From NCBI GenBank assembly GCA_030765605.1, contig JAVCCG010000101.1:1-47311 (forward strand): a DNA stretch of 47,311 bases, read 5' to 3'. The position numbers were made by a program, and so were the translations under genes. The notes under the pieces are model-generated. The model had not been told where the DNA came from. It saw nothing but the letters and a program-made list of their open reading frames with translations, and searched no databases. This document shows, piece after piece, positions 79 to 31,660 of the stretch. Position 1 is the first letter of the stretch. The number at the start of each line of letters is the position of its first letter. This stretch comes from Candidatus Alcyoniella australis. Its GTDB lineage: Bacteria; Lernaellota; Lernaellaia; JAVCCG01; Alcyoniellaceae.

Positions 79-999
79 CTAAAAAATATACTCGGCACGA
101 TGGACCGCGACCTGTTCGGCTCCGCAATCGCGCAGCAGGGCCACCAGCCGATCCAGGGCATTGGCAGGCGCAACGATCTCGACGCGCATGCCCGCGTCCG
201 AGGGCGCTTGGCTGACCAGCCGTGCGCCGAGTTCGTCCAGCCCGGCAACGAGCCGCTCCATTTCGCAGTCGACCTGCGCCCTGAACTCCAGCGAGTTGCG
301 CGCCTCGATCGTGGCCAGCATCCTCCCGCACAGCCGCGCCACCGCCTCGCTCGTGGATCCGGGATCCAGAGGCCGTCCAACCAGACAGGCCTGCGATTCG
401 AGGATCACGCCGTCGTCCAGGCGCCTTAGCCCATTCTGGGCCAGGGTTACACCGCTGGAAGTCAGGTCGACGACCAGGTCCGCGCGTCCCGAGGCGGGCA
501 TCGCCTCGATCGCCCCCTGCCCGCGCACCAGCGCATAGGCGGTTAGACCGCGCTTGCCCAGAAAGCTCCGCGTCAGGTTGGGAAAGCTCGTGCCCACGCG
601 CAACGTCCTGCCGTGCGCTTCGAGGAACTGCGGCGCGAGCTCGATCAGATCCTCGATCCGGGTCACGTCGATCCACATCTGCGGCACCGCCGTCACCAGG
701 CTCGCCGCGCCGAACCCCAATTCCTGGATCAGGCAGCTCAGCCCATGCGTATGCTCCTGGTCCTCGTGAAACAGGTCCAGGCCGGTAATCCCCGCGTCGG
801 CCGTGCCGTCGCACAGCCGCCGGGCGACCTCCTCGGCACGACAGAACAGCAGGTCCATCCCGTCGATCCCGATAAGCGTGCCGCTGTAGCTGCGGCCTCC
901 GCCCGCGACCTTGAGTCCGCAACGGCCGAGAAACTCGATTGCCGATTGGTGCAGGCTGCCCTTGCTCGGCAGAGCCAGCGTCGCGCGTCGGGCGCTCAT
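79..999 (-). CDS. hisG: ATP phosphoribosyltransferase HisG
   Basis: This enzyme condenses ATP with PRPP in the first step of histidine biosynthesis, in the cytoplasm. The N-terminus has the HisG pattern (LALPSKGSL), then VGTSFPNLT near residue 157, and the PRPP-loop region VDLTSSGVTLAQNGL near residues 177-191, which matches the family's D-I-x-(E/S)-(T/S)-G-x-T-L motif. At 306 residues it is longer than the short HisG that normally partners HisZ (about 210-230). The last ~80 residues (VEIVAPANALDRLVALLRDCGA) resemble the ACT-like regulatory domain of long HisG. Its ATG overlaps the hisZ stop by 4 nt (ATGA) and is preceded by GGAGGAAGG, so translation is probably coupled. The pairing of an apparently long HisG with HisZ is odd. 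The family call is firm; the regulatory-domain call is inference. Confidence 0.93.
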   Translation of the reverse strand: MSARRATLALPSKGSLHQSAIEFLGRCGLKVAGGGRSYSGTLIGIDGMDLLFCRAEEVARRLCDGTADAGITGLDLFHEDQEHTHGLSCLIQELGFGAASLVTAVPQMWIDVTRIEDLIELAPQFLEAHGRTLRVGTSFPNLTRSFLGKRGLTAYALVRGQGAIEAMPASGRADLVVDLTSSGVTLAQNGLRRLDDGVILESQACLVGRPLDPGSTSEAVARLCGRMLATIEARNSLEFRAQVDCEMERLVAGLDELGARLVSQAPSDAGMRVEIVAPANALDRLVALLRDCGAEQVAVHRAEYIF

Positions 1000-2156: not shown

Positions 2157-4339
2157 CCTTGCCTTGACCTCCGTCTATCCATCTCCTCGGCCAAACCGGC
2201 GAGGGTTCCGTTCCTGATCAGCCGCACCACCCGATCGATATCGGGGAACAGCACTCGGTCGTTCTCTAAGAACTCGACACCTTCGCGCTTGAGCGTCGTC
2301 ATCAGCCTGCGGGTCATCGCTCCGGGTTTGAACGGCAGGCGGAAGTGCAGCGCCTGGAACGCGGTCAACAGCTCGATGGCAATCACCTGCTCGGCGTTGT
2401 CGATCACCTCGCGGCATTTGCGCGCCGAGATCGGCCCCATGCTCACGTGGTCCTCGCTCCCGGCGCAGGTCGGGATCGAATCGGTGGACGCCGGATGGGT
2501 CAGCACCTTGTTCTCCGAGACCAGGGCCGCGGCCGTGTACTGCGGCACCATAAACCCAGAGTTGAGCCCCGAATGCTGCACCAGAAACGCCGGCAGCCCC
2601 GATGAGACGTCCTCGTCCACCAGGTGCGCGATCCGCCGCTCGGAGATGCTGGCCAGCTCGCTCAGCGCGATGGCCAGGTAGTCCAGGATGATCGCCAGCG
2701 GCTCGCCGTGGAAGTTGCCGCCGCCGATCACCGAACCCAGGCTGCGCTCGATCAGCTCCGCGTCGCTGGTCAGCCAACGGCGATATTGGGCCGGGCTCAT
2801 CGATCCGAAACCCTCGGGCGGCTCGGGTGGAAACAGCAGCGGGTTGTCCGTGGCCGAGTTGATCTCGATTCGCAGCACCTCGTAAGTATTCAGACACGCC
2901 TGGTAGGCGCAGGCAACGACCTGCGGTATGCAGCGGAACGAGTAGTCGTCCTGGAACGGCGGCGCCGAGGGGACCGAGTGTGCCAGATCGCGCAGGGCGT
3001 CGGCCACGTGATCGCGCGCCTTGTCCGCCGGTGGAAAGCGCCGCGCCAGCATCGTGCGGTAGACCTCGGTCAGAGCCTGTTCGGTATCGGACAGCGCCAG
3101 TCGGAAGGCGCGGATCTGGCTTCTGATCTCCGGTTCCCAGGCCACGGTCTGCTGTCGCGACTGCTGTGCCAGACGCAGGCCCTGGCGATAGCGGCGCGCC
3201 GGGCTGTCGAGAAATTCGCGCAGCCGCCCGGCGATCTGATCGATATCGGATTTGCAGCGCAACAGTACCTGGGCGTCGGCCTCGCCGCTGTGCTTGGTCA
3301 AGTCGGCCAGGTCCTTTTCGGCGTCGAGCAGACGCAGGATCGCGCGATTGACGTAAGCCGAGTTGAGGTGCCAGCGGATGATGTCGCTGCCCTCGATGTA
3401 CCCGCGAATGCGCCGGCTGACCTCGAGCTGGAACGGCTGCGGCCGGACTTGGGCCAACCGTTCGTCATAGGCATACGGCACGGCCTTCTGCGCCTCGATG
3501 CTCGCGGTGTGAGCGATCTCGACCGCCTTGAGCATCTGCATCGAATCGTACAGGCCGAGCACTCCCAGGGCGGCCATCAGCTGGGTGCCGTTGTTCAGCG
3601 CCAGGCCCTCCTTGGCGCGCAGCTCGATCGGTCGAAACTTCCAATCCCGTGATTTGGCCAGCCGCTCGAACTCACGCGACGATTGGGGCAGTCGTTCGAA
3701 ATCGTCGACACACAAATGACTCCAGAACCGACCCCGATCGTGGTCGCCGTCGGGTTCGCGGTCGCGGGGACGCATCACGCGGCCCTGGTCGTCGCCCATT
3801 AATACCAGCGCCAGGTGCGACAGCGGCGCCAGGTCGCCCGAGGCCCCGACCGAGCCCTTGGCCGGGATGAACGGGAAGATGTCGTCGTTGAGCATCTGGA
3901 CCAAGCGCTGGACCACCTCGGCTCTGATCCCCGAGTGCCCTTGGCACAGGGCGTTGGCCCGCAAAAGCATCGTCGCCCGCACCACGTCCTCGGGCAGCGG
4001 TTCTCCCACGCCGCAGGCGTGGCTGCGGATCAGGTTGCGTTGCAGCCGACCCACATCCTCGGGCTCGATGATTTTATCGCGCAGTCGGCCGAAGCCCGTG
4101 GTCAGGCCGTAGACCACGGCCTGGCGTTCGAGCAGCACGTCGACCAGCGCGCGGCAACAGTCCATCCGCCGCCGTGCCTCGGGGGCGATGCGCACTCGCG
4201 CGCGGTGGCGCGCCACGGCCACTATCTGCTCTACGTTCAACGAAAGTCCGTCGAGCGTGACCCGCCGGATTTTTTTGCACAGCCTGGGAGCGGACAGAAA
4301 ATCCATCCCAGCCCGGCGAGCGTTGGCCGCGTCGTCCAA
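2153..4339 (-). CDS. Histidine ammonia-lyase-like MIO enzyme with large internal insertions
   Basis: This is a member of the HAL/PAL family, which eliminates ammonia using an MIO cofactor made from Ala-Ser-Gly. The ASG is at residues 166-168 (VGASGDLAPLSH). HutH active-site residues have counterparts here: Tyr77, His107 in RSHACGVGE, Asn250, Gln463 and Tyr466 in FQDDYSFRC, Phe543 in GGNFHGEP, and Glu629 in SEDHVSMG. His107 and Glu629 favour histidine over phenylalanine. The protein has 728 residues against about 510 for HutH. The extra length lies mainly at about 184-232, 321-458 (helical, charged) and 504-538. The middle insertion precedes the QDxYSxR segment, so it is not the plant PAL shielding domain, which lies further C-terminal. 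The start is TTG, 3 nt after the hisS stop; an ATG at codon 12 is an alternative. No hutU, hutI or hutG is nearby. A different amino acid substrate or a mutase role is possible. Confidence 0.88.
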   Translation of the reverse strand: MDDAANARRAGMDFLSAPRLCKKIRRVTLDGLSLNVEQIVAVARHRARVRIAPEARRRMDCCRALVDVLLERQAVVYGLTTGFGRLRDKIIEPEDVGRLQRNLIRSHACGVGEPLPEDVVRATMLLRANALCQGHSGIRAEVVQRLVQMLNDDIFPFIPAKGSVGASGDLAPLSHLALVLMGDDQGRVMRPRDREPDGDHDRGRFWSHLCVDDFERLPQSSREFERLAKSRDWKFRPIELRAKEGLALNNGTQLMAALGVLGLYDSMQMLKAVEIAHTASIEAQKAVPYAYDERLAQVRPQPFQLEVSRRIRGYIEGSDIIRWHLNSAYVNRAILRLLDAEKDLADLTKHSGEADAQVLLRCKSDIDQIAGRLREFLDSPARRYRQGLRLAQQSRQQTVAWEPEIRSQIRAFRLALSDTEQALTEVYRTMLARRFPPADKARDHVADALRDLAHSVPSAPPFQDDYSFRCIPQVVACAYQACLNTYEVLRIEINSATDNPLLFPPEPPEGFGSMSPAQYRRWLTSDAELIERSLGSVIGGGNFHGEPLAIILDYLAIALSELASISERRIAHLVDEDVSSGLPAFLVQHSGLNSGFMVPQYTAAALVSENKVLTHPASTDSIPTCAGSEDHVSMGPISARKCREVIDNAEQVIAIELLTAFQALHFRLPFKPGAMTRRLMTTLKREGVEFLENDRVLFPDIDRVVRLIRNGTLAGLAEEMDRRRSRQG

Positions 4340-4342
4340 ATC

Positions 4343-5731
4343 CTATTCCCCTCGTCCCAGTAGGCTTAGCACCTCGGGCACCAAACGTTCCCGCGGCACC
4401 TCGGTCTGCTTGCTGCGATTATCCTTGTCAACGAACTCGCCCGCCATCGAGCGGATCTGCACTGTACCGTTATTAAGCTCGTCCGAGCCCAGCAGCACGA
4501 CTACGCGCACGCCCAGGTCGTCGCCGTGTTTGAACTGGTGCTTTATCTTGCGCGTGCCCGAATAGAGTACCGTGTTGATCCCCGCCCCGCGCAACTGGGC
4601 GGCGATGCCGAAGCACTCGGGCCGCAGTGCGTCATCGAAGACCACGATCAGCACCTCGGCGGTCGAGGGCCGCTGCTGGATCAGCCCAAGCATCTCCATG
4701 GCCGCCATCACCCGGTCCACGCCGATCGAGGCGCCGGTGGCGGGCAGCGAACGTTTGCTGAAGCGTCCAACCAGGCCGTCGTAGCGTCCGCCGCCGAACA
4801 CCGTCCCGATCTGCGGCGCGCTACGCAGCATCGCCTCGAAGATCATCCCGGTGTAGTAATCCAGCCCGCGGGCGATCGAGAGGTCGATGCAGAACGCATC
4901 AGCCGGAACGTCGTTGGCCGGCAGCGCCTCGACGATGTTGCGCAAATCCGACAGCGCCTCGTCGGCGCGCTCCACGCCGTGGAAGAATTCGACCAGCTGT
5001 GCAAGCTGATCAAGCGCGTCGCCCCTGATCGCCAGGAAACGTTCGATCGTATCGACCGCAACGGTCGACAAGCCCAGCGGCGGCGCGTCGATCCCATCGA
5101 CCATCTGCTGCGGCGCGTTGCCCAGCAGGAGCCGCACTTTTTCCCAGCCCAGCCGGTCGAGCTTATCCAGGGTGCGCAGCACACCGAAGCTCTGCTGCTC
5201 GTCGATGCCGGCCTTGGCGATCAAGGCCTGCAGTATCCCGCGGTGACTGATCTTGATCAGCGAGTCGGACATGCCGATGGCGCACAAGGTGCGGTGGACC
5301 ATGGTTAAAATCTCGACATCGGCCCAGACCGCGGGCTCGCCCACGATGTCCGCGTCGAACTGGGCGAACTCGCGAAAGCGCCCCGGCTTGTGCTTCTCCG
5401 CGCGCCAGACGTTGGCGCAATGGTAGACCCGCAACGGCCAGACGAGCTGTTTGGAGTGCTCCGAGCAGACCCTGGCCAGCGGCACGGTCAGGTCGAAACG
5501 CAGCCCGACCTGGTTGTCGTCGTCATCCACGAAGTGGTAGATCTCCTTCTCGACCTCGCCCTGGCCCAGCAGCACCTCGCGGTACTCCAACGCCGGGGTG
5601 TCGATCGGCGAGAACCCGTGCCGCTCGTAGACCGTGCGCACGCGCTGGATTAACTCGAGGCGCGCCATCTGCCGCGAGGGCAGGAAATCCTGGAACCCGG
5701 GCAGGGTCCGCGGTCTGACGAAATCGGCCAA
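4343..5731 (-). CDS. hisS: Histidyl-tRNA synthetase
   Basis: This enzyme charges tRNA-His. The 462-residue product carries class II motif 2 (NVWRAEKHKPGRFREFAQFD), the two histidine-binding signatures (ARGLDYYTGMIFE and GGGRYDGLVGRF), motif 3 (GASIGVDRVMAAME) and a C-terminal anticodon-binding domain of about 95 residues. The start is TTG, chosen because a strong ribosome-binding site GGAGGTGA lies 3 nt before it and the protein begins as expected (PRTLPGFQDFLP). It is the first gene of hisS - ammonia-lyase - hisZ - hisG, with 3-nt spacing or 4-nt overlaps throughout. A 170-nt leader upstream contains a long nested inverted repeat (5791-5845). Confidence 0.97.
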   Translation of the reverse strand: MADFVRPRTLPGFQDFLPSRQMARLELIQRVRTVYERHGFSPIDTPALEYREVLLGQGEVEKEIYHFVDDDDNQVGLRFDLTVPLARVCSEHSKQLVWPLRVYHCANVWRAEKHKPGRFREFAQFDADIVGEPAVWADVEILTMVHRTLCAIGMSDSLIKISHRGILQALIAKAGIDEQQSFGVLRTLDKLDRLGWEKVRLLLGNAPQQMVDGIDAPPLGLSTVAVDTIERFLAIRGDALDQLAQLVEFFHGVERADEALSDLRNIVEALPANDVPADAFCIDLSIARGLDYYTGMIFEAMLRSAPQIGTVFGGGRYDGLVGRFSKRSLPATGASIGVDRVMAAMEMLGLIQQRPSTAEVLIVVFDDALRPECFGIAAQLRGAGINTVLYSGTRKIKHQFKHGDDLGVRVVVLLGSDELNNGTVQIRSMAGEFVDKDNRSKQTEVPRERLVPEVLSLLGRGE

Positions 5732-21828: not shown

Positions 21829-22281
21829 TCAGCGCAACTTGCTGAGCATCAACTCAAGCTGCTCGCGGTGGCCTTCCTCCTCGCGCTTGAGCCTGACGAA
21901 CAGCTCGCCGATGGCCGTTCCCTGGAAAATATCAACGTAGCGCGCGTAGTATTCCACCGCGCGTTGCTCGTGCATCAGGGCGAACTGCAAGACCTCGCGC
22001 GGGCTCGAGCCCGAATCGACCGATTCGTCGCCGAGCTGCTCGGGCTTGGGAAGCTTGCCGCTGACCTGCGGCTTGCCGATGCGTTCCAGCTCGCCCGAGC
22101 TCAGGGCCTGGGTCAGCAGCCGCTTGTGGCGCAGTTCCTCGTTGCGCAGTCGATTGATGATCTTCTGCGATTGGGGATTGCGCACGATCTGGAGCATCGT
22201 CTCGTAGTTGCGGGCCGAGAGCTGTTCGCGGTTGATCGCCGCGGCGATAATCTGCTTGGGATCGAGCAGCTCGGGGCTCAC
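21829..22281 (-). CDS. Erythrin-like diiron (ferritin-fold) protein, paralogue E
   Basis: The 150-residue protein has two similar halves, each with Glu, Tyr seven residues later, and E-x-x-H thirty residues after the Glu: Glu19/Tyr26/E49-x-x-H52 and Glu105/Tyr112/E135-x-x-H138. This is the iron-binding plan of rubrerythrin-type four-helix bundles. There is no rubredoxin domain (no CxxC). Known relatives reduce peroxide or store or oxidise iron in the cytoplasm. It starts with GTG overlapping the Crp/Fnr stop (GTGA), so the regulator and this protein are translationally coupled. It is the fifth such protein in the operon and the only one downstream of the regulator. Confidence 0.82.
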   Translation of the reverse strand: MSPELLDPKQIIAAAINREQLSARNYETMLQIVRNPQSQKIINRLRNEELRHKRLLTQALSSGELERIGKPQVSGKLPKPEQLGDESVDSGSSPREVLQFALMHEQRAVEYYARYVDIFQGTAIGELFVRLKREEEGHREQLELMLSKLR

Positions 22282-23000
22282 AGCTCGTCCTCCTGCTGCG
22301 CTATTTCGCCCAACTGCTTAAGGTCGTTGATGTAGATAATCCGGCTGCGGGTCTCGATCAGCCCGCGCTTGGTGAAGCGCGAGAGCACCCGGATCGTGGT
22401 CTCGACCGTGGTGCCGACCATGTTGGCGATCTCCTGGCGCGTGATGTGCAACCCGATGCGGATCTGTTCGCTGCGCTGCTCGCCTAGCTGCGCGGCCAGC
22501 TTGAGCAGCAGCCGGGCAATGCGCTGCTCGACCTGTTCGCTGGAAATGCTGCGCAGCATCTCCTGGCACGAGCGCAAACGGCGCACCAGCTCGAGCACGA
22601 TCTCGCCTTGTATCTGCGGTTGACTGCGCAGCATGCTGATGAACTCCGCGCGCGGCAAACGCAGCACTGTCGAGGGCTCCATCGCCAGAGCCGTGGCGTC
22701 GTACGGACGGCCGTCGAGCACGGCCAGCTCGCCGAAGGTCTCGCCCTGGCCCACCATGCCCACGATGGTCTCGTTGCCCTCGCGCCCCTGCTTAACCAGC
22801 TTGACCTTGCCCTGGACCAGGATATGCAACGCCTCGGGCGGCTCCTGCTCCCAGTAGATCTGGTCGCCGCGCTTGAACTCATCCAACGCGGCGCTGTGCG
22901 CGATCGACTCGAGCTGTTCGGCGGACATTCCCGAAAATATGAAGATATTTTTGAGCGCTTCGATGGTATCGAACTTCAAGCGAAAACCCCCGGGAGGCAA
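22278..23000 (-). CDS. Crp/Fnr-family transcriptional regulator
   Basis: This is an N-terminal cyclic-nucleotide-type sensor domain plus a C-terminal winged helix. The sensor has GETFGELAVLDGRPYDATALA. At the spot where cAMP-binding members have Arg-(Ser/Thr) after the PRP-type turn, this protein has Tyr-Asp, so cAMP binding is doubtful. No N-terminal Fnr cysteine cluster is seen. The DNA-reading helix is ITRQEIANMVGTTVETTIRVLSRF. Both open starts are TTG (22998-23000 or 22977-22979) and neither has a strong ribosome site; the second gives a more typical N-terminus. It sits inside the diiron-protein operon, so control of that operon and perhaps the divergent nqr genes is likely. Confidence 0.9.
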   Translation of the reverse strand: MPPGGFRLKFDTIEALKNIFIFSGMSAEQLESIAHSAALDEFKRGDQIYWEQEPPEALHILVQGKVKLVKQGREGNETIVGMVGQGETFGELAVLDGRPYDATALAMEPSTVLRLPRAEFISMLRSQPQIQGEIVLELVRRLRSCQEMLRSISSEQVEQRIARLLLKLAAQLGEQRSEQIRIGLHITRQEIANMVGTTVETTIRVLSRFTKRGLIETRSRIIYINDLKQLGEIAQQEDEL

Positions 23001-23060
23001 TGGCTCACAGCGCGCTCGATTGTGTCAGATCGAACCGCAGAGCACAACAGAACCGCGGCC

Positions 23061-24398
23061 TCAGTCGGCTTGGCCCTTACCGTGCTTGATGGTCTGCCAG
23101 CGCTTGCCAAACTCGAACTGCGGATCGCGCAACGTGGTGTGACAGCGCAGGCAGGTATTGACGTCCGCGGGCACGCCCTTGATCGTCGGATCGGCCGTGT
23201 GCGCCTTGCGCGCGCCGTGGCAGACCTCGCAGCCCACGTTGCCCAATCCCGGAGTGAAGTCCATCGAGACGAAGCCGCCGGGCGTGCCGTAGCCCACGCT
23301 GTGGCAGACCACGCACTCGGGGTCGAAATCCTGGCCCGCCTCGGCCAAGCTCTGCATCGCCAGGGCGTGCTGAGTCTGGGTCCACTTGTCGAAGTCCGCC
23401 GAGTGGCAATTCATACAGCTCTCGGAACCGGCAAACGGGCTTTGCTGCTCGTGGAGCTGAGCCTGCTGGGCAGCCTCGATAAAGATCTTTTTAACCTCGT
23501 CCAGGTAGGCTTCGTAGAATTTCTTATGTTCGGGATGGTCGGCGAGCTTATCGCCAAGGGGCGTGTAATCGACGCTCACCTGCTCCAACGCGCCGTCCGG
23601 CGCCAGCGAGAGCTCGAAGCGGCCGACCAGCCGGCCTTGATCCGCGGCCTCGGCCCAGGCGCGCTTGCCGACCACCGTGTACGTGGGATTGTCGGCCCCG
23701 GCCGCTCCTCCGGCGTAGGAGCGCACCAGCAGGTCCACGCCGGGCAGTTCAAATATGCGTTTGGCGTCGTCGGGCTTGACCGCGGCGAGCACCAGCACCA
23801 CCGGCCGCGGGCTCATCGCATCGGCCGCGGCCAGCTGTTCGCGCACGGCCTGCAGCGGATCGGAGATGCTCAGCGAGCCCTGTTCGCCCGAGTACAGCAC
23901 GTCGGGTCCGGTCACGCCGACTATCATCAGCGAACGCGGCGTCATCTCCACCAGCTTGTAGGGCACGCTCAGCCCCTGCGGGGCGTCGCGCAGCGTGACG
24001 TTGGCCGAGACGTAGGGCGCTGGCCCGTACTTTGCCAGGAAGTTCGCGCCGAATAAAAAGTCGTTCGCGCCGAAGGTGGCGGTGGTATAGCCGCTGAGGC
24101 GCAGCGATTCGAGCAGGGTCTGGGCCTTGATCCGCTCCTGGCGCGTGCCGCCCTGGAAATTGTGCCCCAGGTCCACGACCACCAGTTGGGGATTTTGGAC
24201 GCGCTGCTGCTCGATGAACGTGGCTCGGCGCATCAGGCCGCCGGCCATCTCACCGCCTGCGCAGCCGCAGGGCTTGATCCAACCGCGGCAGTCGCCGGTG
24301 AACAGGATCGTCATCCGCGCCGGGGTTTGGGCCCGCGACGGTGCGAAGGACACCAGCGTCAGCAGCGTCAACGCAGCGATCAACAGCACGCGTTTCAT
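23061..24398 (-). CDS. Exported 5'-nucleotidase-like / tetrahaem cytochrome c fusion
   Basis: The product (445 residues from the ATG at 24396-24398, which has a G-rich ribosome site) has a signal peptide ending near SRAQ. Residues about 28-280 follow the UshA/metallophosphatase layout: ILFTGDCRGWIKPCGC, VVVDLGHNF and FGANDFLFG. The usual metal ligands D-x-H and G-D are changed, so phosphatase activity is doubtful. The C-terminal 120 residues carry four haem sites CxxCH (about 328-332, 362-366, 390-394, 416-420) like cytochrome c-554-type proteins, with extra His residues for axial ligands. It should be periplasmic and move electrons. Fusions of this kind are known in metal- and sulfur-cycling deltaproteobacteria. 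It is the only c-type cytochrome in the window. Confidence 0.85.
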   Translation of the reverse strand: MKRVLLIAALTLLTLVSFAPSRAQTPARMTILFTGDCRGWIKPCGCAGGEMAGGLMRRATFIEQQRVQNPQLVVVDLGHNFQGGTRQERIKAQTLLESLRLSGYTTATFGANDFLFGANFLAKYGPAPYVSANVTLRDAPQGLSVPYKLVEMTPRSLMIVGVTGPDVLYSGEQGSLSISDPLQAVREQLAAADAMSPRPVVLVLAAVKPDDAKRIFELPGVDLLVRSYAGGAAGADNPTYTVVGKRAWAEAADQGRLVGRFELSLAPDGALEQVSVDYTPLGDKLADHPEHKKFYEAYLDEVKKIFIEAAQQAQLHEQQSPFAGSESCMNCHSADFDKWTQTQHALAMQSLAEAGQDFDPECVVCHSVGYGTPGGFVSMDFTPGLGNVGCEVCHGARKAHTADPTIKGVPADVNTCLRCHTTLRDPQFEFGKRWQTIKHGKGQAD

Positions 24399-24440
24399 CA
24401 AATCCCCCCCGATAAAACTATTCGGAGCGGGGTCGGGTAA

Positions 24441-24911
24441 TTATTCTCCCCAGGCCCAAAACCCCTCGTTGGTCAAGGCGTAGAACTGGTCGTTAAGCAC
24501 GCGCTCGTGCAGTAGCTCCTCCTGGATCAGACGCTCGAAGACTTGCCTGCCCGCCGGATCGTCGGTGGAAGCGGCCAGCTCGCGGTAACTCTGGGCCGCG
24601 TTGCGCTCGGCCTGGATCGCCTGCGAGATGATATCGAGCACATCGCCGCTCTCGGAAACCCGATCCGCGCCGGCCTCGTCGATGTTGATCCGCTGCGGCT
24701 CGTCGCCGTATTCGGGATAGCCGTTACCGCCCTGAAGCGACTCGATCATCTCGTCGAGCTTGTCGCGGTGCGTCGACTCGTAGCGCGCCAGCTGCTCGAA
24801 CAGGTCCTTGCCCCGCGGATCAGCGCAGCCCAGGGCCGCGTCTGCGTAAAAGTGCGCTGCGCGGTCCTCGGCCTGCCGCGCGATTACGATCGCCTCGATC
24901 TGCGTAGTCAT
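24441..24911 (-). CDS. Erythrin-like diiron protein, paralogue D
   Basis: The 156-residue, two-repeat ferritin-fold protein has Glu15/Tyr22/E45-x-x-H48 and Glu102/Tyr109/E132-x-x-H135. The 30-residue step from Glu to E-x-x-H is the same as in its four paralogues here. The linker (about 60-88) is acidic and glycine-rich. There is no rubredoxin domain. It starts 12 nt after the flavodoxin gene; the 12 nt form a small palindrome (CGGTA-AA-TACCG), and no strong ribosome site is seen, so translation may depend on the upstream gene. Iron oxidation or peroxide reduction is the family role; the electron donor could be the adjacent flavodoxin (inference). Confidence 0.82.
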   Translation of the reverse strand: MTTQIEAIVIARQAEDRAAHFYADAALGCADPRGKDLFEQLARYESTHRDKLDEMIESLQGGNGYPEYGDEPQRINIDEAGADRVSESGDVLDIISQAIQAERNAAQSYRELAASTDDPAGRQVFERLIQEELLHERVLNDQFYALTNEGFWAWGE

Positions 24912-24923
24912 CGGTAAATACCG

Positions 24924-25349
24924 CTAGAGCTTGGCGGCCAGTGCGTCGATCACGCGACCGACCTGCGCCATGCCCTCTTCCTCTTTCCAGGCGTTGACCT
25001 TCAGCGGCTCGACAACGTCCATCTTGAACAGGTAGATCAGGGTCTCCTGGATAATCTCGATGGCGTCGGCACTCCAGCCGAACGAACCGAAGGCCAGCCC
25101 CGGCTTGCCCTCGAGCTTGGCAGCCTCGACCTTGAACAGGAACTCCTTCATCGAGGGGATCAGATCGTGGTGGTAGGTGGCTCCGCCCAGGGCCACGGCG
25201 TCGGCCGCCTCGAGATCGGCAACCTCGGTATCGCGACCGCGCTTGACCTCCGCCTCGATTCCCTTGGCTTTTGCGGCCTCGGCCAGGACCTCGGCGATGC
25301 GTTGAGTGTTGCCGGTGCGACTCTGGTAGACGATCAGCAGCTTGGCCAT
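24924..25349 (-). CDS. Flavodoxin
   Basis: This 141-residue flavodoxin-fold protein should bind FMN and carry electrons in the cytoplasm. The phosphate loop is YQSRTGNTQRIAE at the N-terminus, followed by ALGGATYHHDLIPSMKEFL and a GSFGWSADA segment, which matches the loops that hold the isoalloxazine ring in flavodoxins and in the C-terminal domain of FprA-type proteins. I chose the ATG over a TTG two codons earlier because GGGGAG lies 9 nt before the ATG. It sits between diiron genes C and D with 20-nt and 12-nt spacers. The context suggests that it delivers electrons to the diiron proteins, perhaps taken from a membrane complex. Confidence 0.9.
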   Translation of the reverse strand: MAKLLIVYQSRTGNTQRIAEVLAEAAKAKGIEAEVKRGRDTEVADLEAADAVALGGATYHHDLIPSMKEFLFKVEAAKLEGKPGLAFGSFGWSADAIEIIQETLIYLFKMDVVEPLKVNAWKEEEGMAQVGRVIDALAAKL

Positions 25350-25369
25350 TTGCAATATCTCCCCTTTTG

Positions 25370-25846
25370 CTAGTTATCAGTAAGTATGTGCTCGTCGTAG
25401 AGGCGTTCGAGCCGAAGCTTGTGCCCCTGCTCCTCGTTGACCAGCCAATCGAACAGCTCGGCCAGCTGGTGCCCCTCGAACATTGCCTTGAGCGCGTCGT
25501 AAAAACGCGCCGAGCCCTCCTCGAACTTGATCGCCGCGATCATCACGTCCTGGGTCGTGGCGTCCGCGGCCAGCTCGTCGTAGGTCAGGTAGCGGGCGAT
25601 GCCCAGATCCTGCCGCTGAGGACGTTGGGCCAGTCCGCCGGCGTAGCGGCGATCGTCGAGCACCTGCTGCAGCCGCCGTTTGTGCTCGATCTCCTGCTGG
25701 GCAAGTTCGCGCAGCATTTGGCGCGCGGCCAGGTCCGCGAGCTTGTCGCGGTGCTGCTCGTAGAAATCGTGGGCAAACTGTTCGCGCTTGATCGCGTACT
25801 CCAGAACCTCGCGCGCGCTTTTAAATCCCATGTTCTGATTGTCCAT
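25370..25846 (-). CDS. Erythrin-like diiron protein, paralogue C
   Basis: This is a 158-residue two-repeat ferritin-fold protein with Glu22/Tyr29/E52-x-x-H55 and Glu109/Tyr116/E139-x-x-H142. Iron ligands are complete in both halves and no rubredoxin domain follows. ATG is preceded by AAAGGACG. It lies 17 nt after paralogue B and 20 nt before the flavodoxin. Divergence from the other four copies is large outside the metal motifs, so this is an old duplication rather than a recent tandem repeat. Confidence 0.82.
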   Translation of the reverse strand: MDNQNMGFKSAREVLEYAIKREQFAHDFYEQHRDKLADLAARQMLRELAQQEIEHKRRLQQVLDDRRYAGGLAQRPQRQDLGIARYLTYDELAADATTQDVMIAAIKFEEGSARFYDALKAMFEGHQLAELFDWLVNEEQGHKLRLERLYDEHILTDN

Positions 25847-25863
25847 AACGGCGTCCTTTGAAC

Positions 25864-26370
25864 TCAGGCCCCGTCCAGGCCGATTTTGTCGGCCCCCTCC
25901 TGCCAGGCTTGCGGATCCTTGAGCGCCTCGTAGGAGTCGAGCAGCACCAGGTAGTGCCAGTGCTCCTCGCGCGCCAGGATCGCGAAGAAATCGCGCTCGT
26001 TCTCGTGCTGCGCCTGCTGTGCGGCGCGCTGGTAGTACTGTTCTCCGCGCTGCTCGAACTGCATTGCGCGCTGGATCGCCTGCATGTCGTCCGCGTCCTC
26101 GGGCAGGGCCTGCTCGACGTGCTTGAGCGCGTCGCTGAACACGGTCTTGAGCCCATCGATGTCGCCGAACTTGGCCGGCGACTCGGGCATGCTTCCGAGC
26201 TCGCGCAGTTTCTGCACATAGCTCTCGATGGTAGCCATGTGACGCTGCTCCTCCGCGATTAGATAGGAGAAGATCTCCCGCGCCATGCTGCTCTGCGCGT
26301 TTTCCAAGGCTTGCCGATAGAGCGCCTCGCCCTCGAGCTCGGTATTGATCGCAATTTCAAAAGGCGTCAT
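25864..26370 (-). CDS. Erythrin-like diiron protein, paralogue B
   Basis: This is a 168-residue two-repeat ferritin-fold protein with Glu11/Tyr18/E41-x-x-H44 and Glu106/Tyr113/E136-x-x-H139. The first motif begins almost at the N-terminus (EGEALY), so this copy has the shortest leader of the five. The C-terminal 20 residues after the last helix (PQAWQEGADKIGLDG) are a tail not seen in the others. ATG is preceded by GGGGGATGATC, and spacing to paralogue A is 14 nt. Confidence 0.82.
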   Translation of the reverse strand: MTPFEIAINTELEGEALYRQALENAQSSMAREIFSYLIAEEQRHMATIESYVQKLRELGSMPESPAKFGDIDGLKTVFSDALKHVEQALPEDADDMQAIQRAMQFEQRGEQYYQRAAQQAQHENERDFFAILAREEHWHYLVLLDSYEALKDPQAWQEGADKIGLDGA

Positions 26371-26384
26371 CGATCATCCCCCTA

Positions 26385-26882
26385 TTATGGTCCGACGTGG
26401 ATCAGGATCGCTTCCTTGTCGTACAGGTCCGGGTCGCGCGTGATGAAGCGCAGCTCGGACTCGAGTTGACGTTGGTGCCCGTGCTCGAAATCGGCCAAAT
26501 ACTCGAGCATGGTGCGAGCCGAGGGATCGACGCTGCGCGCCGCCGCCTCGGAGTAGAGCTGCCGGGCGTCTTTCTCCATCCTGATGGCGATTTTCAGCAG
26601 CTCTTTGGTTTCCAGCTCATCGAAGACTTTGAAGTCGATCTCGGGTTGATACTTGTCCGGAACCGGCGGGCGATCCTCGCCGCTGGCGCGCCGGTACTGC
26701 TGCAACAGCAGCTTCTCGTGACCGCGCTCCTGGGAAGCCAGCGTCTTAAACTTGCTCTTGGTCATCGGATTGCGCACCCGGTCGGCGAACTTGGTATAGA
26801 ACCTCGCCGCGTCGTGCTCAGCCTTGACCGCAACGCCCAGGATCTCCAGGCTGGTCAGCCCCTTGGCGATCTGTCTGCTCAT
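26385..26882 (-). CDS. Erythrin-like diiron protein, paralogue A (first gene of operon)
   Basis: This is a 165-residue two-repeat ferritin-fold protein with Glu22/Tyr29/E52-x-x-H55 and Glu103/Tyr110/E133-x-x-H136. A proline-rich linker (EDRPPVPDKYQPE) joins the halves. The last residues (KEAILIHVGP) form a short strand-like tail. ATG has AGGGGGATG before it. It is the first gene of a probable ten-gene transcript running to 18964 and is divergent from nqrB, with 316 nt between them. Confidence 0.82.
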   Translation of the reverse strand: MSRQIAKGLTSLEILGVAVKAEHDAARFYTKFADRVRNPMTKSKFKTLASQERGHEKLLLQQYRRASGEDRPPVPDKYQPEIDFKVFDELETKELLKIAIRMEKDARQLYSEAAARSVDPSARTMLEYLADFEHGHQRQLESELRFITRDPDLYDKEAILIHVGP

Positions 26883-27198: not shown

Positions 27199-28218
27199 AT
27201 GAGCACGGCCTCCAAGCAAGCTACAGGCGCCGAACCCGCGGGCAAGCAGCGCAGCTACTTCAAATACCTCAAACCGCAAATGCACGTGGTCTACGCCACC
27301 TCTCCGCTGGCGCTGGTCGGCGTGTTCCTCTTCGGCTGGCGCGTGCTGGCACTGTTGGCGTTCGTCTTCGTGATCGGCATCATCACCGAGGGGCTGTTCA
27401 CCCTGCCCAAAGGCAAGCCGATCACCACGGCCTGCCTGGTAAGCTGCATGCTCTACACGCTGACCCTACCGGCCACAGTCCCGCTGTGGATCGCCGGCGT
27501 GGGAATCGTCTTCGGCCTTGCCATCGGCAAGATGGCCTTCGGCGGGACCGGGATGAACGTGTTCAACCCCGCACTGGCCGGACGCGCGTTCATCTACGTC
27601 AGCTTCCCGCAACACATGACCAATCGCTGGATCGACCCGGCCGTCGGCCCGCTGGGCGGATTCCAGGAATGGATCTCGCAGCCGCTGCAGCCCGACGCGC
27701 TGAGCACGGCCACGCCCTTGATCGACATCTCGCAAAACGTGCCCTTCGACTGGATCAAGGCCTTTATCGGCTACACGCCGGGCAGCATCGGCGAGACCTG
27801 CGTACCGCTGCTGGTGCTCGGGGTGCTGTGGCTGCTGTTCGTATCCAAGAGCGCCAGCTGGCGCATCGTGCTCGCCTGCCTGATCGGCTTTATCGGCTGC
27901 AACGTGATCTTCTATTTCTCCGACCTGCTGCCGCAGTCGGCCACGCCGCTGAACTGGCTGGTCACCGGCGGGTTCCTGTTCGGCGCGTTCTTCATGGCCA
28001 CCGATCCGGTGAGCGCCGCAAGCACCAAGGACGGACAGTGGATCTACGGCCTGCTGATCGGAGCGCTGGCCGTGGTCTTCCGCGGGTTCAGCAACTTCCC
28101 CGAGGGCACGATGTTCGCGATCCTGATGGGCAACATCTTCGCCCCGACCTTCGATTACCTGGCCAAGGAACGGATCAAGCACCGCAAGGCCCGTCGCTCC
28201 TCGACCGGGGGGGGCTGA
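27199..28218 (+). CDS. nqrB: Na+-translocating NADH:quinone reductase-like subunit NqrB, shortened
   Basis: This is the polytopic membrane subunit that carries covalent FMN and, in Nqr, the sodium path and quinone site. It is closer to NqrB than to RnfD: PATVPLWIAGVGIVFGL, FGGTGMNVFNPALAGRAF, KAFIGYTPGSIGE, FFMATDPVSAAS and the C-terminal PEGTMFAILMGNIFAPTFD all match NqrB blocks. It has 339 residues against about 410. The N-terminal ~60-70 residues of NqrB, part of the quinone and inhibitor region, are mostly missing. The flavinylation site reads D-A-L-S-T-A-T (166-172) instead of D-x-x-S-G-A-T; Thr172 is the expected acceptor. A G8 run ends the gene and serves as the ribosome site for nqrC, which follows the TGA directly and in the same frame. 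Confidence 0.92.
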   Translation: MSTASKQATGAEPAGKQRSYFKYLKPQMHVVYATSPLALVGVFLFGWRVLALLAFVFVIGIITEGLFTLPKGKPITTACLVSCMLYTLTLPATVPLWIAGVGIVFGLAIGKMAFGGTGMNVFNPALAGRAFIYVSFPQHMTNRWIDPAVGPLGGFQEWISQPLQPDALSTATPLIDISQNVPFDWIKAFIGYTPGSIGETCVPLLVLGVLWLLFVSKSASWRIVLACLIGFIGCNVIFYFSDLLPQSATPLNWLVTGGFLFGAFFMATDPVSAASTKDGQWIYGLLIGALAVVFRGFSNFPEGTMFAILMGNIFAPTFDYLAKERIKHRKARRSSTGGG

Positions 28219-28878
28219 TTGAGCAACCGCTCGCGCGCCTTCTCCGTGCTCTACACGGCGCTGATCAGCGCGCTGTTCGTCGCCCTGGTCTCGGCCGTGG
28301 CCCTGGCCACCCGCCAGCGTATCGAGCTCAACGAGCAAGTGGCGACCCAACGCGAAATCCTCAAGGTCAGCGGACTGTGGGACTCGCAGCGCTACGCCTC
28401 GGTGCGCGAGATGCCCGCGGCGCAAATCGCCCAACGCTTCGAACGCCTGATCCAGGGGCCCAAGCGGGTCGGCGGGCTCGAGTTGTACTACGCACGCAAC
28501 GACTCGGGCCAGCTCGAAGCGATCATCTTCGACATCCAGGGCATGGGCTTCTGGGGGCCGATCCACGGCTGGCTGGCTGTGGAGCCGGGCACCAACCGCA
28601 TCAAGGGAATCAGCTTCGACCGCCAGGAGGAGACCCCGGGGCTGGGCGGCGAAATAGTCAAGCCCTGGTTCCAGCAACAGTTCGTGGGCATCGAGCTGGC
28701 CGCGCCGCGCGCCGGACGGCCGGCGATCGAGCTGGTGTCCAACGCGGCTGAAAAACTGCCCAACCAAGTCGACGCGATCACCGGCGCCAGCCGCACCAGT
28801 TACGCGGTGCAGCAGATGCTCAACGCGGACATCGCCGCGTTCCTCGCCGCCGGCGTTGACGCGCTGCCCGCGGAGTAA
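28219..28878 (+). CDS. nqrC: NqrC-like subunit with a serine flavinylation site
   Basis: This 219-residue protein has one N-terminal membrane helix (about 9-31) and a periplasmic FMN-binding domain. Nqr-type blocks are GMGFWGPIHGWLAVEP and ETPGLGGEI (138-146). The flavinylation motif is D-A-I-T-G-A-S (185-191): the acceptor is Ser191, where the family usually has Thr. ApbE-type flavin transferases are reported to use Thr or Ser, so modification is still plausible. The start is TTG directly after the nqrB TGA, preceded by the G8 run. RnfG is the homologue in Rnf, but the ETPGLGGE and GFWG blocks plus the neighbours favour Nqr. Confidence 0.9.
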   Translation: MSNRSRAFSVLYTALISALFVALVSAVALATRQRIELNEQVATQREILKVSGLWDSQRYASVREMPAAQIAQRFERLIQGPKRVGGLELYYARNDSGQLEAIIFDIQGMGFWGPIHGWLAVEPGTNRIKGISFDRQEETPGLGGEIVKPWFQQQFVGIELAAPRAGRPAIELVSNAAEKLPNQVDAITGASRTSYAVQQMLNADIAAFLAAGVDALPAE

Positions 28879-28881
28879 GCC

Positions 28882-29499
28882 ATGGGCAAGCCCGGCGCCG
28901 GCACGATCATGCTCAACGGTCTCTGGCGCGAAAACCCGATCTTTCGCCAGATCCTCGGGATCTGCTCGGCGCTGGCCGTGACCAACCTGCTGGTCAACAC
29001 AGTTACGCTCTGCGCGGGAATGGTCGCGGTGACCGCCCTGAGCAGCGGCACGGTCTCGCTGCTGCGCAACGTCACGCCGCGCCGGGTGCGAATGATGGTC
29101 CAGGTGCTGATCATCGCCTCCTACGTGATTTTGGTCGACCTGGTGCTCAAGGCCTATTTGCCCGAGATCAGCAAGGCGCTGGGCCCCTACGTGGGGCTGA
29201 TTATCACCAACTGCATCATCATGGGCCGCGCCGAGGCGTTCGCCGGCTCGAACCGGGTGCTGCCCAGCATGCTCGACGGCCTGGCCTCGGGACTGGGCTA
29301 CAGCCTGGTGCTGGTCTGCGTGGCGGTAGTGCGCGAGCTGCTGGGCTTTGGCACGATCTGGAACGTGGCGCTGATGCCCGAGGACTTCACCCGCTGGACG
29401 CTGATGGTGATGGCGCCCGGCGCGTTTTTCATGCTCGGAATCTTTATCTGGATCGCGCGCGGCCTGTTCCCGTCCAAGGCCGAGGCAACGGGGAGCTGA
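28882..29499 (+). CDS. nqrD: NqrD-like membrane subunit
   Basis: This is a 205-residue polytopic subunit of the NqrDE/RnfAE pair. It has NPIFRQILGICSALAVTN near the N-terminus and LIITNCIIMGRAEAFA in the middle. The two cysteines (in GICSA and TNCII) are those that, with the NqrE pair, hold an iron-sulfur centre inside the membrane. ATG is preceded by GGAGTAAGCC and is 3 nt after the nqrC stop. About six hydrophobic helices are visible. RnfE is the homologue in Rnf; the operon order B-C-D-E-F supports the Nqr naming. Confidence 0.92.
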   Translation: MGKPGAGTIMLNGLWRENPIFRQILGICSALAVTNLLVNTVTLCAGMVAVTALSSGTVSLLRNVTPRRVRMMVQVLIIASYVILVDLVLKAYLPEISKALGPYVGLIITNCIIMGRAEAFAGSNRVLPSMLDGLASGLGYSLVLVCVAVVRELLGFGTIWNVALMPEDFTRWTLMVMAPGAFFMLGIFIWIARGLFPSKAEATGS

Positions 29500-29500
29500 G

Positions 29501-30088
29501 ATGGAACCCGGGCCCATAGCGATCTTCTTCGCCGCGATCTTCACCAGCAACATCCTGCTGGTCAACTTCCTCGGGATGTGCTCGTTCCTCTCGATCAGCC
29601 GCGAGCTCAAGGCCAGCGTGGGACTGGGGCTGGCCGTGACCTTCGTGCTGACCACCACATCGTTGATCGCCTACCTGCTCAACCAGTACGTGCTGGTGCC
29701 GCTGGAGATGGAGCACCTGCGCTACATCGTGTTCATCGTGGTGATCGCGGCCTTCGTGCAGTTGGTCGAGATCGTCATCGAACGCATCAGTCCGGTGCTC
29801 TACGTCAACCTCGGGATCTTCCTGCCGCTGATCACGGTCAACTGCGCGATCCTGGGCTCGCTGCTGTTCCTGGTGATCCGCGAGTACGACCTGTGGCAGT
29901 CGCTGGCATTCGGCGCGGGCTCGGGCCTGGGCTGGATGCTGGCGATCGTGGCCCTGGCCGGCATCCGGCAGCGGATGAAGTACTCCAAGGTCCCCGCGGC
30001 CCTCGAGGGGCCGGGCATCGCGCTGATCATCACCGGGCTGATGTCCCTGGCGTTCGTGGGCTTCAGCGGAATGATCCCGATCCAATGA
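29501..30088 (+). CDS. nqrE: NqrE-like membrane subunit
   Basis: This is a 195-residue polytopic partner of NqrD, with inverted topology in the family. It has NFLGMCSFLSIS near the N-terminus and LGIFLPLITVNCAILGSLLF in the middle, then GAGSGLGWMLAIVALAGIRQ, KYSKVPAALEGPGI and the final FVGFSGM. The two conserved Cys residues complete the membrane iron-sulfur site. ATG has GGGGAG 6 nt before it. The stop overlaps the nqrF start as ATGA. Confidence 0.93.
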   Translation: MEPGPIAIFFAAIFTSNILLVNFLGMCSFLSISRELKASVGLGLAVTFVLTTTSLIAYLLNQYVLVPLEMEHLRYIVFIVVIAAFVQLVEIVIERISPVLYVNLGIFLPLITVNCAILGSLLFLVIREYDLWQSLAFGAGSGLGWMLAIVALAGIRQRMKYSKVPAALEGPGIALIITGLMSLAFVGFSGMIPIQ

Positions 30089-31194
30089 TCACCAGCCTGG
30101 CGATTCAGGTCGGCGTGGTGGCGGCCATCGGCGCGCTGCTCGCCGCGCTGATCGAGCTGGCCGACCGTTTCATCGCCAACTACGGCGAATGCCGAATCAC
30201 GATCAACGACGAGGAGGAGCGCAGTCTGAACGTACAGGGCGGCGGTCACCTGCTCGGCGCGCTGGCCGAAAACAAGCTGTTCATCCCCTCGGCCTGCGGC
30301 GGGCGCGGCAGCTGTGGGCTGTGCAAGGTCAAGGTGCTCGAGGGCGGCGGCCCGCTGCTGCCCACCGAGGCGCCCTACCTCAGCGCAACCGAACGCAAGA
30401 ACAACGTACGCCTCAGCTGCCAGGTCAAGGTGCGCAATAATTTGCGAATCGAGATCCCGCAAGAACTGTTCGCGATCAAGCGCTACGCTGGACGCGCGGG
30501 CAAGATCATCGATCAAACCCACGACATGAAGCAGCTCGACATCGAGTTGACCGAGCCTGAAACCCTCGATTTCAAGGCCGGCCAGTACGTCCAGCTCACC
30601 GCGCCGGAATACGCCAAAAGCGACCAGCCGATCTACCGCGCCTACTCGATCTGCTCCGACCCCACTGACGAGAGCACGATCAGCCTACTGATCAGACGTG
30701 TGCCCGACGGAATCTGCACCACCTGGGTCTTCGACTATCTCAAAGTCGGCGACCAGGTCGAGCTCAACGGCCCGCACGGCGAGTTCTGTTTGCAACCCAC
30801 CGCGCGCGAAATCCTGTTCATCGCCGGAGGCTCGGGCTTGGCGCCGATCCGCAGCATGCTGTTCCAGATGCGCAACGAAAAAATCGACCGCAAGGCGACG
30901 TTCTATTTCGGCGCGCAGACCAGCGACGACCTGTGCTATCTGGAGCAGATGGCGCAGTTCGAGCGCGATTTGCCGCAGTTCAAGTTCGTGCCCGCGCTGA
31001 GCATGCCGCGCGACGAGGACCGCTGGGAGGGCGCGCAAGGGCTGATCACCGACGTGTTGGACGCGGGCGAGCACGAGTTCGCCCAGGCCGAGGCCTACCT
31101 CTGCGGCAGCCCGGGGATGATCGACGCCTGCATCAAGGTGCTCTTGACGCACGGCATGCCCCAAGAACGCATCTTCTACGACAAGTTCGCGTAG
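30085..31194 (+). CDS. nqrF: NqrF-like NADH dehydrogenase subunit
   Basis: This is the electron-input subunit that oxidises NADH through FAD and a 2Fe-2S centre. It has one N-terminal membrane helix (about 5-25), a plant-type ferredoxin domain with Cys71, Cys77, Cys80 and Cys112 (ACGGRGSCGLC, RLSCQV), FAD-binding RAYSICS, NADH-binding IAGGSGLAPIRSM and CGSPGMIDACIKVL, and the C-terminal FYDKFA. It has 369 residues against about 405. The frame is open far upstream inside nqrE, but the ATG at 30085 overlaps the nqrE stop and gives the canonical membrane-anchor N-terminus. The presence of NqrF shows that this is an NADH-driven Nqr-type complex and not Rnf, although no nqrA is found beside it. 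Confidence 0.95.
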   Translation: MITSLAIQVGVVAAIGALLAALIELADRFIANYGECRITINDEEERSLNVQGGGHLLGALAENKLFIPSACGGRGSCGLCKVKVLEGGGPLLPTEAPYLSATERKNNVRLSCQVKVRNNLRIEIPQELFAIKRYAGRAGKIIDQTHDMKQLDIELTEPETLDFKAGQYVQLTAPEYAKSDQPIYRAYSICSDPTDESTISLLIRRVPDGICTTWVFDYLKVGDQVELNGPHGEFCLQPTAREILFIAGGSGLAPIRSMLFQMRNEKIDRKATFYFGAQTSDDLCYLEQMAQFERDLPQFKFVPALSMPRDEDRWEGAQGLITDVLDAGEHEFAQAEAYLCGSPGMIDACIKVLLTHGMPQERIFYDKFA

Positions 31195-31201
31195 GAGGAT
31201 C

Positions 31202-31660
31202 ATGAAGCAATCGCCGCAACTGGACGAGGTCCAACGCAAGATGCAGCCGGGCCGGATCGTGATCAACGGCATGCTCGGCCACGACCAACGGCCGCTGGTC
31301 GAAATCCTCACCGCGGACCAGGGGCGCGTCAACGCCCTGGATCTGAGCCACGAGCAGATCGCCGACTTTCTGAGCAACCTGCTCGAAATCGGGCGCGACG
31401 GCCTGGGCGACCCGATCCACGCGGGACAACTCGTGGTGCAGGTCGAACACTTCCGCGGCCGCACCCCCTGCCCCTGGGCTGACGGCGTTTTCCCCAAGGT
31501 GCTGATGCGTCTGCGCCACGAGCCCAGCGCTCGCGCGATGCAGGTCAGCGCCCTGGGAATTCACATGATCCACGTCCACGGCTTCTATCAGGGGCGCGGC
31601 TCGCAATATCGGGTCGAGCCCGAGCTGATCGCCGAGCTGATGGCGCAATCCGAAAGGTAA
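31202..31660 (+). CDS. Conserved-looking protein of unknown function in the nqr operon
   Basis: This 152-residue soluble protein follows nqrF by 7 nt with a strong AGGAGG ribosome site, so it is almost certainly cotranscribed. It has no signal peptide or membrane segment. The most distinctive part is GRTPCPWADGVFPKV (87-99) with one cysteine (Cys90), followed by a strand-rich part with three histidines (GIHMIHVHGFYQGRG). A metal site from Cys and His is conceivable, but I recognise no family. Its position suggests an accessory, assembly or replacement role for the Nqr-like complex. Confidence 0.7.
   Translation: MKQSPQLDEVQRKMQPGRIVINGMLGHDQRPLVEILTADQGRVNALDLSHEQIADFLSNLLEIGRDGLGDPIHAGQLVVQVEHFRGRTPCPWADGVFPKVLMRLRHEPSARAMQVSALGIHMIHVHGFYQGRGSQYRVEPELIAELMAQSER

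Follow-up and report, generated by a model that had tools for sequence, protein, structure and literature searches.

The closest described relatives of the locus reported here are the Na+-translocating NADH:quinone oxidoreductase (Na+-NQR) of Vibrio and others, the Rnf complex (RnfABCDGE) and a few operons that hold nqrBCDEF but no nqrA. According to cryo-electron microscopy of Na+-NQR, the soluble domain of NqrF is anchored on NqrA, the C-terminal loop of NqrA is intertwined with the N-terminal stretch of NqrB, and this same stretch is the binding place of korormicin and aurachin (PMC9325719). A review describes the NqrB quinone site as built from two N-terminal amphipathic helices, which it gives as absent in RnfD (PMC12174285). 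Operons with nqrBCDEF but without nqrA are in print for Pseudothermotoga thermarum and P. lettingae (PMC4148951) and for Clostridium ultunense (PMC5924567), where the acceptor is described as unknown or as lower in potential than quinone. Here we analyze a locus of this kind in a 47,311-nucleotide stretch (the window) of the draft genome of Candidatus Alcyoniella australis (contig JAVCCG010000101.1). At positions 27199-31660 of the forward strand five nqr-like genes in the order B-C-D-E-F are followed, nearly gapless, by a sixth gene that we call X:

27199..28218, forward strand, nqrB-like gene: 339 amino acids; threonine for covalent flavin mononucleotide (FMN) and equivalents of E144 and D397 present; without the N-terminal quinone-site arm; the Gly141-equivalent is Ile
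28219..28878, forward strand, nqrC-like gene: 219 amino acids; FMN-binding domain; flavinylation-type motif DAITGAS (Ser replaces Thr)
28882..29499, forward strand, nqrD-like gene: 205 amino acids; both cluster cysteines present
29501..30088, forward strand, nqrE-like gene: 195 amino acids; both cluster cysteines present; rnfA and nqrE models score about equally
30085..31194, forward strand, nqrF-like gene: 369 amino acids; N-terminal hydrophobic segment (by eye), Fer2 with four cysteines, flavin adenine dinucleotide (FAD) and NAD domains
31202..31660, forward strand, gene X: 152 amino acids; conserved sixth gene after nqrF (gap of 7 bp); no known family; confident predicted fold without a match in PDB

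Our preferred reading, to which we give a rough probability of 0.42, is that this complex (Nqr-X) represents an NqrA-less branch of the Rnf/Nqr family which would have kept the NADH entrance and the ion-pumping core, lost the quinone exit and turned to a soluble acceptor, with X as a dedicated soluble partner of NqrF. Given that NqrA and the quinone part of NqrB are missing and that menaquinone genes were mostly not found, electrons are probably passed to a small soluble protein, and we infer that the complex is most likely an ion-pumping NADH oxidase with such an acceptor. Two genome papers left the acceptor of nqrBCDEF without nqrA open; the conserved sixth gene and the missing quinone part make the question testable. 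If the acceptor is indeed a soluble protein, NADH oxidation, and possibly oxygen detoxification, would here be coupled to ion pumping in a new manner.

Pfam E-values exclude chance for the subunits (5e-84 for NqrB, 3.5e-14 for NqrC, 2e-57 for NqrD and 1.4e-55 for NqrE), and NqrF carries the domains Fer2, FAD_binding_6 and NAD_binding_1. All five stay under the NCBIfam equivalog cut-offs for nqrB to nqrF which, together with the nearly equal rnfA and nqrE scores of NqrE, places the complex between the Nqr and Rnf families. The gene upstream of nqrB is a divergent ferritin-like gene and not nqrA. An earlier, sequence-only reading of this DNA had described the canonical order B-C-D-E-F with nqrA missing upstream, which gene calls and Pfam now bear out; the cofactor cysteines it listed as kept are indeed present in the window (a pair each in NqrD and NqrE, and four in the Fer2 domain of NqrF). 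Its statement that neither RnfB nor RnfC occurs holds for 27199-31660 but not for the genome, where both are part of a separate Rnf cluster.

Compared with Na+-NQR, Nqr-X shares the NqrF-type NADH entrance, the NqrDE cysteine pairs, the FMN sites and the gene order, but it lacks NqrA and the NqrB arm, has Gly141 replaced, has an NqrF that is some 40 amino acids shorter than the canonical one (as seen in the window), and gains X. With Rnf it has in common a homologous membrane core, a similarly short NqrB/RnfD N-terminus and a bulky residue at the Gly141 position, whereas RnfB and RnfC are missing at the locus and NqrF forms the NADH entrance. As far as the sources describe them, the published NqrA-less loci match the window in gene set, gene order, absence of nqrA and presence of Rnf elsewhere in the genome; X, the missing arm, the quinone-gene pattern and the link with rubredoxin and rubrerythrin stem from the present analysis and go unmentioned for those loci in the portions available to us. 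A last group consists of 11 loci in which nqrBCDEF is accompanied by an RnfC-like A protein (L025, L027, L043, L044, L045 and L174-L179; among them L025 from Anammoxibacter and L027 from Omnitrophica). These share the NqrF-type entrance and a related core, yet differ from Nqr-X by their A protein of 460-510 amino acids, the lack of a neighbouring X and an NqrB arm of 50-90 residues. No mention of X, or of an RnfC-like A beside NqrF, was found in the parts of the Nqr and Rnf literature that were available.

The source genome (4.29 Mb in 157 contigs, 98% complete) gave no match in a whole-genome search with the NQRA_N profile. The full nqrA model likewise found nothing over its cut-off in this genome; its single match, of 24 bits, corresponds to RnfC, encoded on another contig within a complete rnfABCDGE cluster. 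The suggestion of the sequence-only reading that nqrA might be dispersed elsewhere is thus not supported by these searches, and its proposal of a complex without NqrA stands. It might still be argued that the assembly lost nqrA or lacks the contig that bears it, the source being a draft of many contigs and incomplete. We consider the probability of such an artefact to be practically nil: nqrBCDEF without a neighbouring nqrA recurs in many genomes, single-contig ones included, which already refutes this explanation, and the short NqrB matches the missing nqrA.

The arm of NqrB, taken as the residues before the core and counted from the longest open frame (so that all lengths are upper bounds), is 28 residues long in the window against 82-140 (median 102) in 12 loci that bear NqrA. 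Hence about 75 residues are missing, and as the open frame measures only 342 amino acids in total, a longer nqrB start is impossible. With the truncated locus L020 excluded, arm lengths are 9-42 in 19 X loci, 23-37 in three loci with neither A nor X, 22-59 in five Rnf loci and 50-90 in the 11 loci with RnfC-like A. Counted from the first methionine some arms in A-bearing loci shrink (L174 to 2 residues, L177 to 43, L165 to 45, L171 and L172 to 51), but in L174, L165, L171 and L172 the longer frame starts at the end of the A gene, which favours the longer nqrB start. The sequence-only reading was therefore correct about the shortness of NqrB, though its estimate of 60-70 lacking residues was somewhat low, and a similarly short N-terminus is found in none of the 23 A-bearing loci (12 NqrA, 11 RnfC-like; the smallest arm counts 50 residues from the longest open frame). 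NqrB is better described as being without the arm that accompanies an Nqr A subunit than as 'shortened'; RnfD is also without it. A second determinant points the same way: glycine is present at the Gly141-equivalent in 12/12 NqrA loci and 7/11 RnfC-like loci, against 0/20 X loci, 0/3 loci without A and X and 0/5 Rnf loci. We take Gly141 to be part of the quinone/korormicin site of NqrB; a literature search on G140/G141 yielded no paper.

Residues along the electron path show the opposite tendency. In an alignment of 20 X rows the NqrD and NqrE cysteines for the intramembrane [2Fe-2S] cluster, the four cysteines and the FAD motif (RxYS) of NqrF, the FMN threonine of NqrB and the E144-equivalent of NqrB are present in all rows, and the D397-equivalent in 19. 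Pattern matching finds the flavinylation-type motif of NqrC in 14/20 rows; in the window it reads TGAS, with Ser at the expected FMN-acceptor Thr position, and the homologue in another genome of the same phylum (G002) is identical there. From these motifs covalent FMN sites are predicted on NqrB and NqrC, and the electron path up to the quinone end thus appears to be kept in Nqr-X.

To what extent the arrangement recurs can be seen at three levels. Among seven genomes of the source phylum, G002 carries the same nqrBCDEF-X with no nqrA beside it (its X is 31% identical to that of the window). A scan of named genomes with an NqrF alignment returned 14 loci, 13 of which can be judged for X (L032 ends inside nqrF): X stands behind nqrF in six, from two Kiritimatiellae, an unassigned bacterium, a Phycisphaerae, Auribacter and a Planctomycetota, and was not found in the other seven within the flank examined (0.9 kb in L026). 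Of 386 sampled genomes, 15 contain X, counting the source genome, and in 12 of them it sits directly behind nqrF. It is particularly frequent in the phylum of genome G211, presumably Thermotogota, with 53 of 103 genomes; 20 more loci taken from this phylum all have nqrF directly upstream of X and, with one exception, a full nqrBCDEF. Altogether 38 loci with nqrF and X were inspected, and X follows nqrF in each of them. In 31 X loci both nqrB and the gene upstream of it can be seen, and none of them has nqrA there. Over the cut-off nqrA is present in 31/386 sampled genomes and in 0/15 X genomes; about one would be expected by chance among 15, so this count alone proves little. The 14 genomes of the named scan are also without nqrA over the cut-off. 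In four X genomes a further nqr cluster is present, which includes an RnfC-like A (G044 and G053 from the named scan, G247 and G168 from the sample). The survey that the sequence-only reading had proposed therefore has a positive outcome: nqrBCDEF plus the homologue of the 31202 gene recurs without nqrA across several lineages.

A maximum-likelihood tree of NqrB, NqrD and NqrE with Rnf as outgroup takes in 20 of the 38 X loci, 12 of the 31 nqrA-positive sampled genomes and five Rnf loci. The 20 X rows and two rows from Tindallia form one clade (support 100/100), in which the window groups with G002 (96/89) and Tindallia (Bacillota) is nested (97/90). Sister to the X clade (100/99) are the 12 canonical NqrA loci plus three loci with RnfC-like A, and eight more RnfC-like loci branch earlier. 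Genomes of the G211 phylum fall in the X clade together with Tindallia; the published Pseudothermotoga and Clostridium loci are outside the sampled rows. Most simply, this tree can be read as subunit A being lost once and X being gained once, with X lost or moved in Tindallia. L029 (Muiribacteriota), which has no neighbouring A, was excluded from the main tree because of its long branch, and its placement stays open in another tree that includes it, which would allow for A having been lost a second time. Given the recurrence of nqrF-X without a neighbouring nqrA, the absence of nqrA is not a local loss, and NqrA-less complexes can form one clade across several phyla.

The loci with RnfC-like A bear on the origin of Nqr. 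Two CxxCxxCxxxC motifs are found in 11/11 RnfC-like A proteins and in 0/12 NqrA proteins; the RnfC-like A proteins are without the GLGGA-type motif of RnfC, while 5/5 RnfC proteins carry both motif types. In a published model RnfB is lost, RnfC degenerates to NqrA and NqrF is recruited next (PMC4014512, as far as that source was available). Unlike this model, the 11 loci that combine NqrF with a cysteine-motif A suggest that NqrF was recruited before A lost its iron-sulfur motifs, and they may be regarded as candidate intermediates between Rnf and Nqr.

With respect to the acceptor, quinone genes were compared between 18 X genomes (those tested that have nqrF beside X; G160, with X but no nqr, was omitted) and 12 NqrA genomes hand-picked from the 31 nqrA-positive ones. 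A menaquinone marker (MenB over the cut-off or a clear MqnA/D) is present in 2/18 X genomes (for the six from the named scan no completeness is given) against 9/12 NqrA genomes (two-sided Fisher p 0.001). If two weak partial PF02621 matches over the Pfam cut-off (G211, G323) are counted as well, this becomes 4/18 (p 0.008). None of the three genomes lacking both A and X shows a menaquinone marker. The UbiA prenyltransferase family is too broad, as most X genomes have some member, so only its complete absence was used as a quinone test: 7/25 X genomes, three of them single-contig, have no UbiA-family match, and all 12 NqrA genomes have one. These patterns weigh on the explanation that NqrA and the arm are dispensable and that quinone is still reduced directly by the complex, at NqrB. 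Such a view could appeal to NqrA having no redox cofactor (PMC12174285) and to the quinone-related genes that do occur in G044, G052 and the source genome (see below). Nevertheless, NqrB is without the quinone-site helices, none of the 20 X rows keeps Gly at the Gly141-equivalent, 14 to 16 of the 18 X genomes are without menaquinone markers and the three single-contig genomes lack any UbiA-family match, which makes direct quinone reduction improbable. A soluble acceptor, as in our preferred reading, agrees with the suggestion of the sequence-only reading that another acceptor or a substitute subunit is involved: the missing quinone determinants and the quinone-gene pattern back its first half, but the identity of the acceptor and X as the substitute can at this stage only be put forward as proposals.

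For the X protein nothing convincing was found in Pfam, NCBIfam, PHROGs or the PDB chains, apart from a rubredoxin domain fused to it in one locus. Its predicted structure is confident (predicted local distance difference test 93, predicted template modelling (pTM) score 0.87). Foldseek against PDB gives nothing under E 0.001 (best 0.23), and a second structure comparison reaches at most Z 2.8 over 63 residues, although the lack of a PDB match does not make the fold new. Nine positions are invariant across an alignment of 18 sequences; six of them hold Gly or Pro, no Cys or His is among them, and conservation of His121 and His126 is nearly complete. A Cys/His metal site was considered since Cys90 was invariant in eight sequences, but it is Ser in 4/18 and the candidate was dropped. 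Further arrangements are found outside the window. In L021 (6461-7102) X carries a C-terminal rubredoxin domain (PF00301, 7e-21). In L155 (7035-9237, genome G479) the order is NqrF, X and a BCP-type peroxiredoxin with no nqrBCDE upstream, and this NqrF has no N-terminal hydrophobic segment (by eye); L160, with the same genus code as the L155 genome, has a full operon. L019 and L021 have NqrF-X with no nqrE directly upstream. X thus stays with NqrF in L155, L019 and L021, much as NqrA holds NqrF in Vibrio. As a separate observation, L074 (8953-9408; G160, a single-contig genome) contains X without any neighbouring nqr gene.

Two alternatives attach to these data. NqrF and X alone might form an NADH-dependent reductase that serves peroxiredoxin, rubredoxin or some other soluble protein, such that electrons exit at NqrF and the membrane subunits are a second outlet. 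The three loci in which nqrBCDE is not directly upstream (L155, L021, L019) would agree with this, and so would L155 with X and the peroxiredoxin behind an NqrF that has (by eye) no N-terminal hydrophobic segment. However, nqrBCDE may sit elsewhere in those three genomes, 19/20 X loci of the G211 phylum have the full nqrBCDEF, and the cofactor residues are present in all 20 aligned X rows, so that we find this explanation rather unlikely. Alternatively, X could be an assembly or maturation factor like ApbE or NqrM, leaving the complex a plain NqrA-less pump. Its position matches that of apbE and nqrM behind nqrF in V. cholerae (PMC12174285), and it has neither an invariant Cys nor a cofactor motif. 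The X-rubredoxin fusion and the NqrF-X units without adjoining nqrBCDE point instead to a role with NqrF or the acceptor, and X also misses the set of cysteines that we would presume for NqrM; a maturation role is consequently judged unlikely.

The genes next to nqrBCDEF-X may provide a further indication of the acceptor. In the window a divergent cluster on the reverse strand faces nqrB:

26385..26882, reverse strand, ferritin-like gene (rubrerythrin family): first gene of the divergent cluster, 317 bp upstream of nqrB; possible electron sink
25864..26370, reverse strand, ferritin-like gene (rubrerythrin family): divergent-cluster context
25370..25846, reverse strand, ferritin-like gene (rubrerythrin family): divergent-cluster context
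24924..25355, reverse strand, flavodoxin: divergent-cluster context; candidate soluble acceptor
24441..24911, reverse strand, ferritin-like gene (rubrerythrin family): divergent-cluster context
21829..22281, reverse strand, ferritin-like gene (rubrerythrin family): same divergent cluster

The cluster (21829-26882) also includes a Crp/Fnr-type regulator and a cytochrome c554 protein with a UshA-like part. A promoter scan of the region between nqrB and the cluster gave no promoter-like site. Over all loci, a ferritin-like, ferritin, rubredoxin, flavodiiron or BCP-type gene is no more than 1 kb away in 12/38 X loci (the window, L022, L031, L069, L077, L145, L146, L148, L150, L154, L155 and L159) against 1/30 controls (one-sided Fisher p 0.003), the controls being 11 RnfC-like, 12 NqrA and 4 Rnf loci plus 3 without A and X. 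For this final test own-locus queries and matches below 20 bits were excluded, which drops a 16-bit control match in L174; a first test, with queries from the same loci, gave 12/38 against 2/30 (two-sided p 0.015). Nine X-locus neighbour proteins and the control match were checked with Pfam, and the L021 fusion was not counted as a neighbour. Within the flanks of X loci we counted 16 redox or diiron genes in 70 kb near the locus versus 10 in 391 kb further away. A comparable neighbour exists in C. ultunense, where the rubrerythrin CUESP_0386 is seven tags from nqrBCDEF (CUESP_0375-0379; PMC5924567).

The same neighbours speak to the direction of electron flow. In a reverse run the Na+ gradient would push electrons from a higher-potential soluble donor through NqrB and NqrF to NAD+. 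Relatives of the Rnf type are reversible (PMC12174285, PMC11889175), the source genome and G002 also carry Rnf, and 13/15 sampled X genomes have at least two NqrB/RnfD-type matches, so that another enzyme could supply the gradient. The neighbours, on the other hand, are electron sinks (rubrerythrin, flavodiiron and peroxiredoxin types) rather than donors, and a reverse run therefore seems very improbable.

Taking forward operation with a soluble acceptor, and by analogy with the solved Nqr, NADH would be oxidized at the FAD and [2Fe-2S] cluster of NqrF, after which electrons would move to the [2Fe-2S] cluster between NqrD and NqrE, to the FMN of NqrC and on to the FMN and riboflavin of NqrB; their passage would drive Na+ (or H+) outward. 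Less surely, the NqrB riboflavin might, in the absence of a quinone pocket, face the cytoplasm and reduce a soluble carrier. Such a carrier could be rubredoxin in some lineages, as the rubredoxin fusion and neighbours suggest, and perhaps flavodoxin in the source genome. It might then feed the reduction of O2 and peroxide by rubrerythrin, flavodiiron or peroxiredoxin-type proteins. X would work with NqrF, either by taking over the docking role of NqrA or by presenting the soluble acceptor. In terms of potential, electrons falling from NADH to rubredoxin cover a span equal to or larger than that from NADH to menaquinone, approximately. A more far-reaching proposal, which we put forward as doubtful but worth stating, is that of a third, quinone-free Rnf/Nqr branch: X would stand in for NqrA in an ion-pumping NADH:rubredoxin (or flavodoxin) oxidoreductase, and presumed anaerobes would gain a Na+ gradient while removing O2 and peroxide by means of rubrerythrin, flavodiiron or peroxiredoxin proteins.

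Several observations weigh against a soluble acceptor with X as the partner of NqrF. The acceptor and the pumping are both predicted from sequence alone. X has no invariant Cys or clear cofactor ligand and so probably carries no electrons itself, and the model of the X-rubredoxin fusion consists of two well-folded domains with a loose linker (pTM 0.74) and no sign of a fixed interface. X is apart from nqrF in 3/15 sampled X genomes (two of these matches are weak), and in Tindallia no X adjoins the complex. As to the neighbours, 26/38 X loci (the L021 fusion among them) have no redox or diiron gene nearby and the control L025, with its RnfC-like A, also has a peroxiredoxin beside nqrF; moreover, we settled on the neighbour classes with the first examples already in view, many X loci are related by descent, and flank lengths differ. 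Finally, G044 (MenB) and G052 (clear MqnA/D type) carry a menaquinone pathway marker, and the source genome has five UbiA-family matches, which makes some prenylated quinone possible there.

Elsewhere in the window, the region 79-5731 holds a 728-amino-acid aromatic amino acid lyase (PF00221) between hisG-, hisZ- and hisS-like genes (by eye), an odd mix of histidine synthesis and breakdown.

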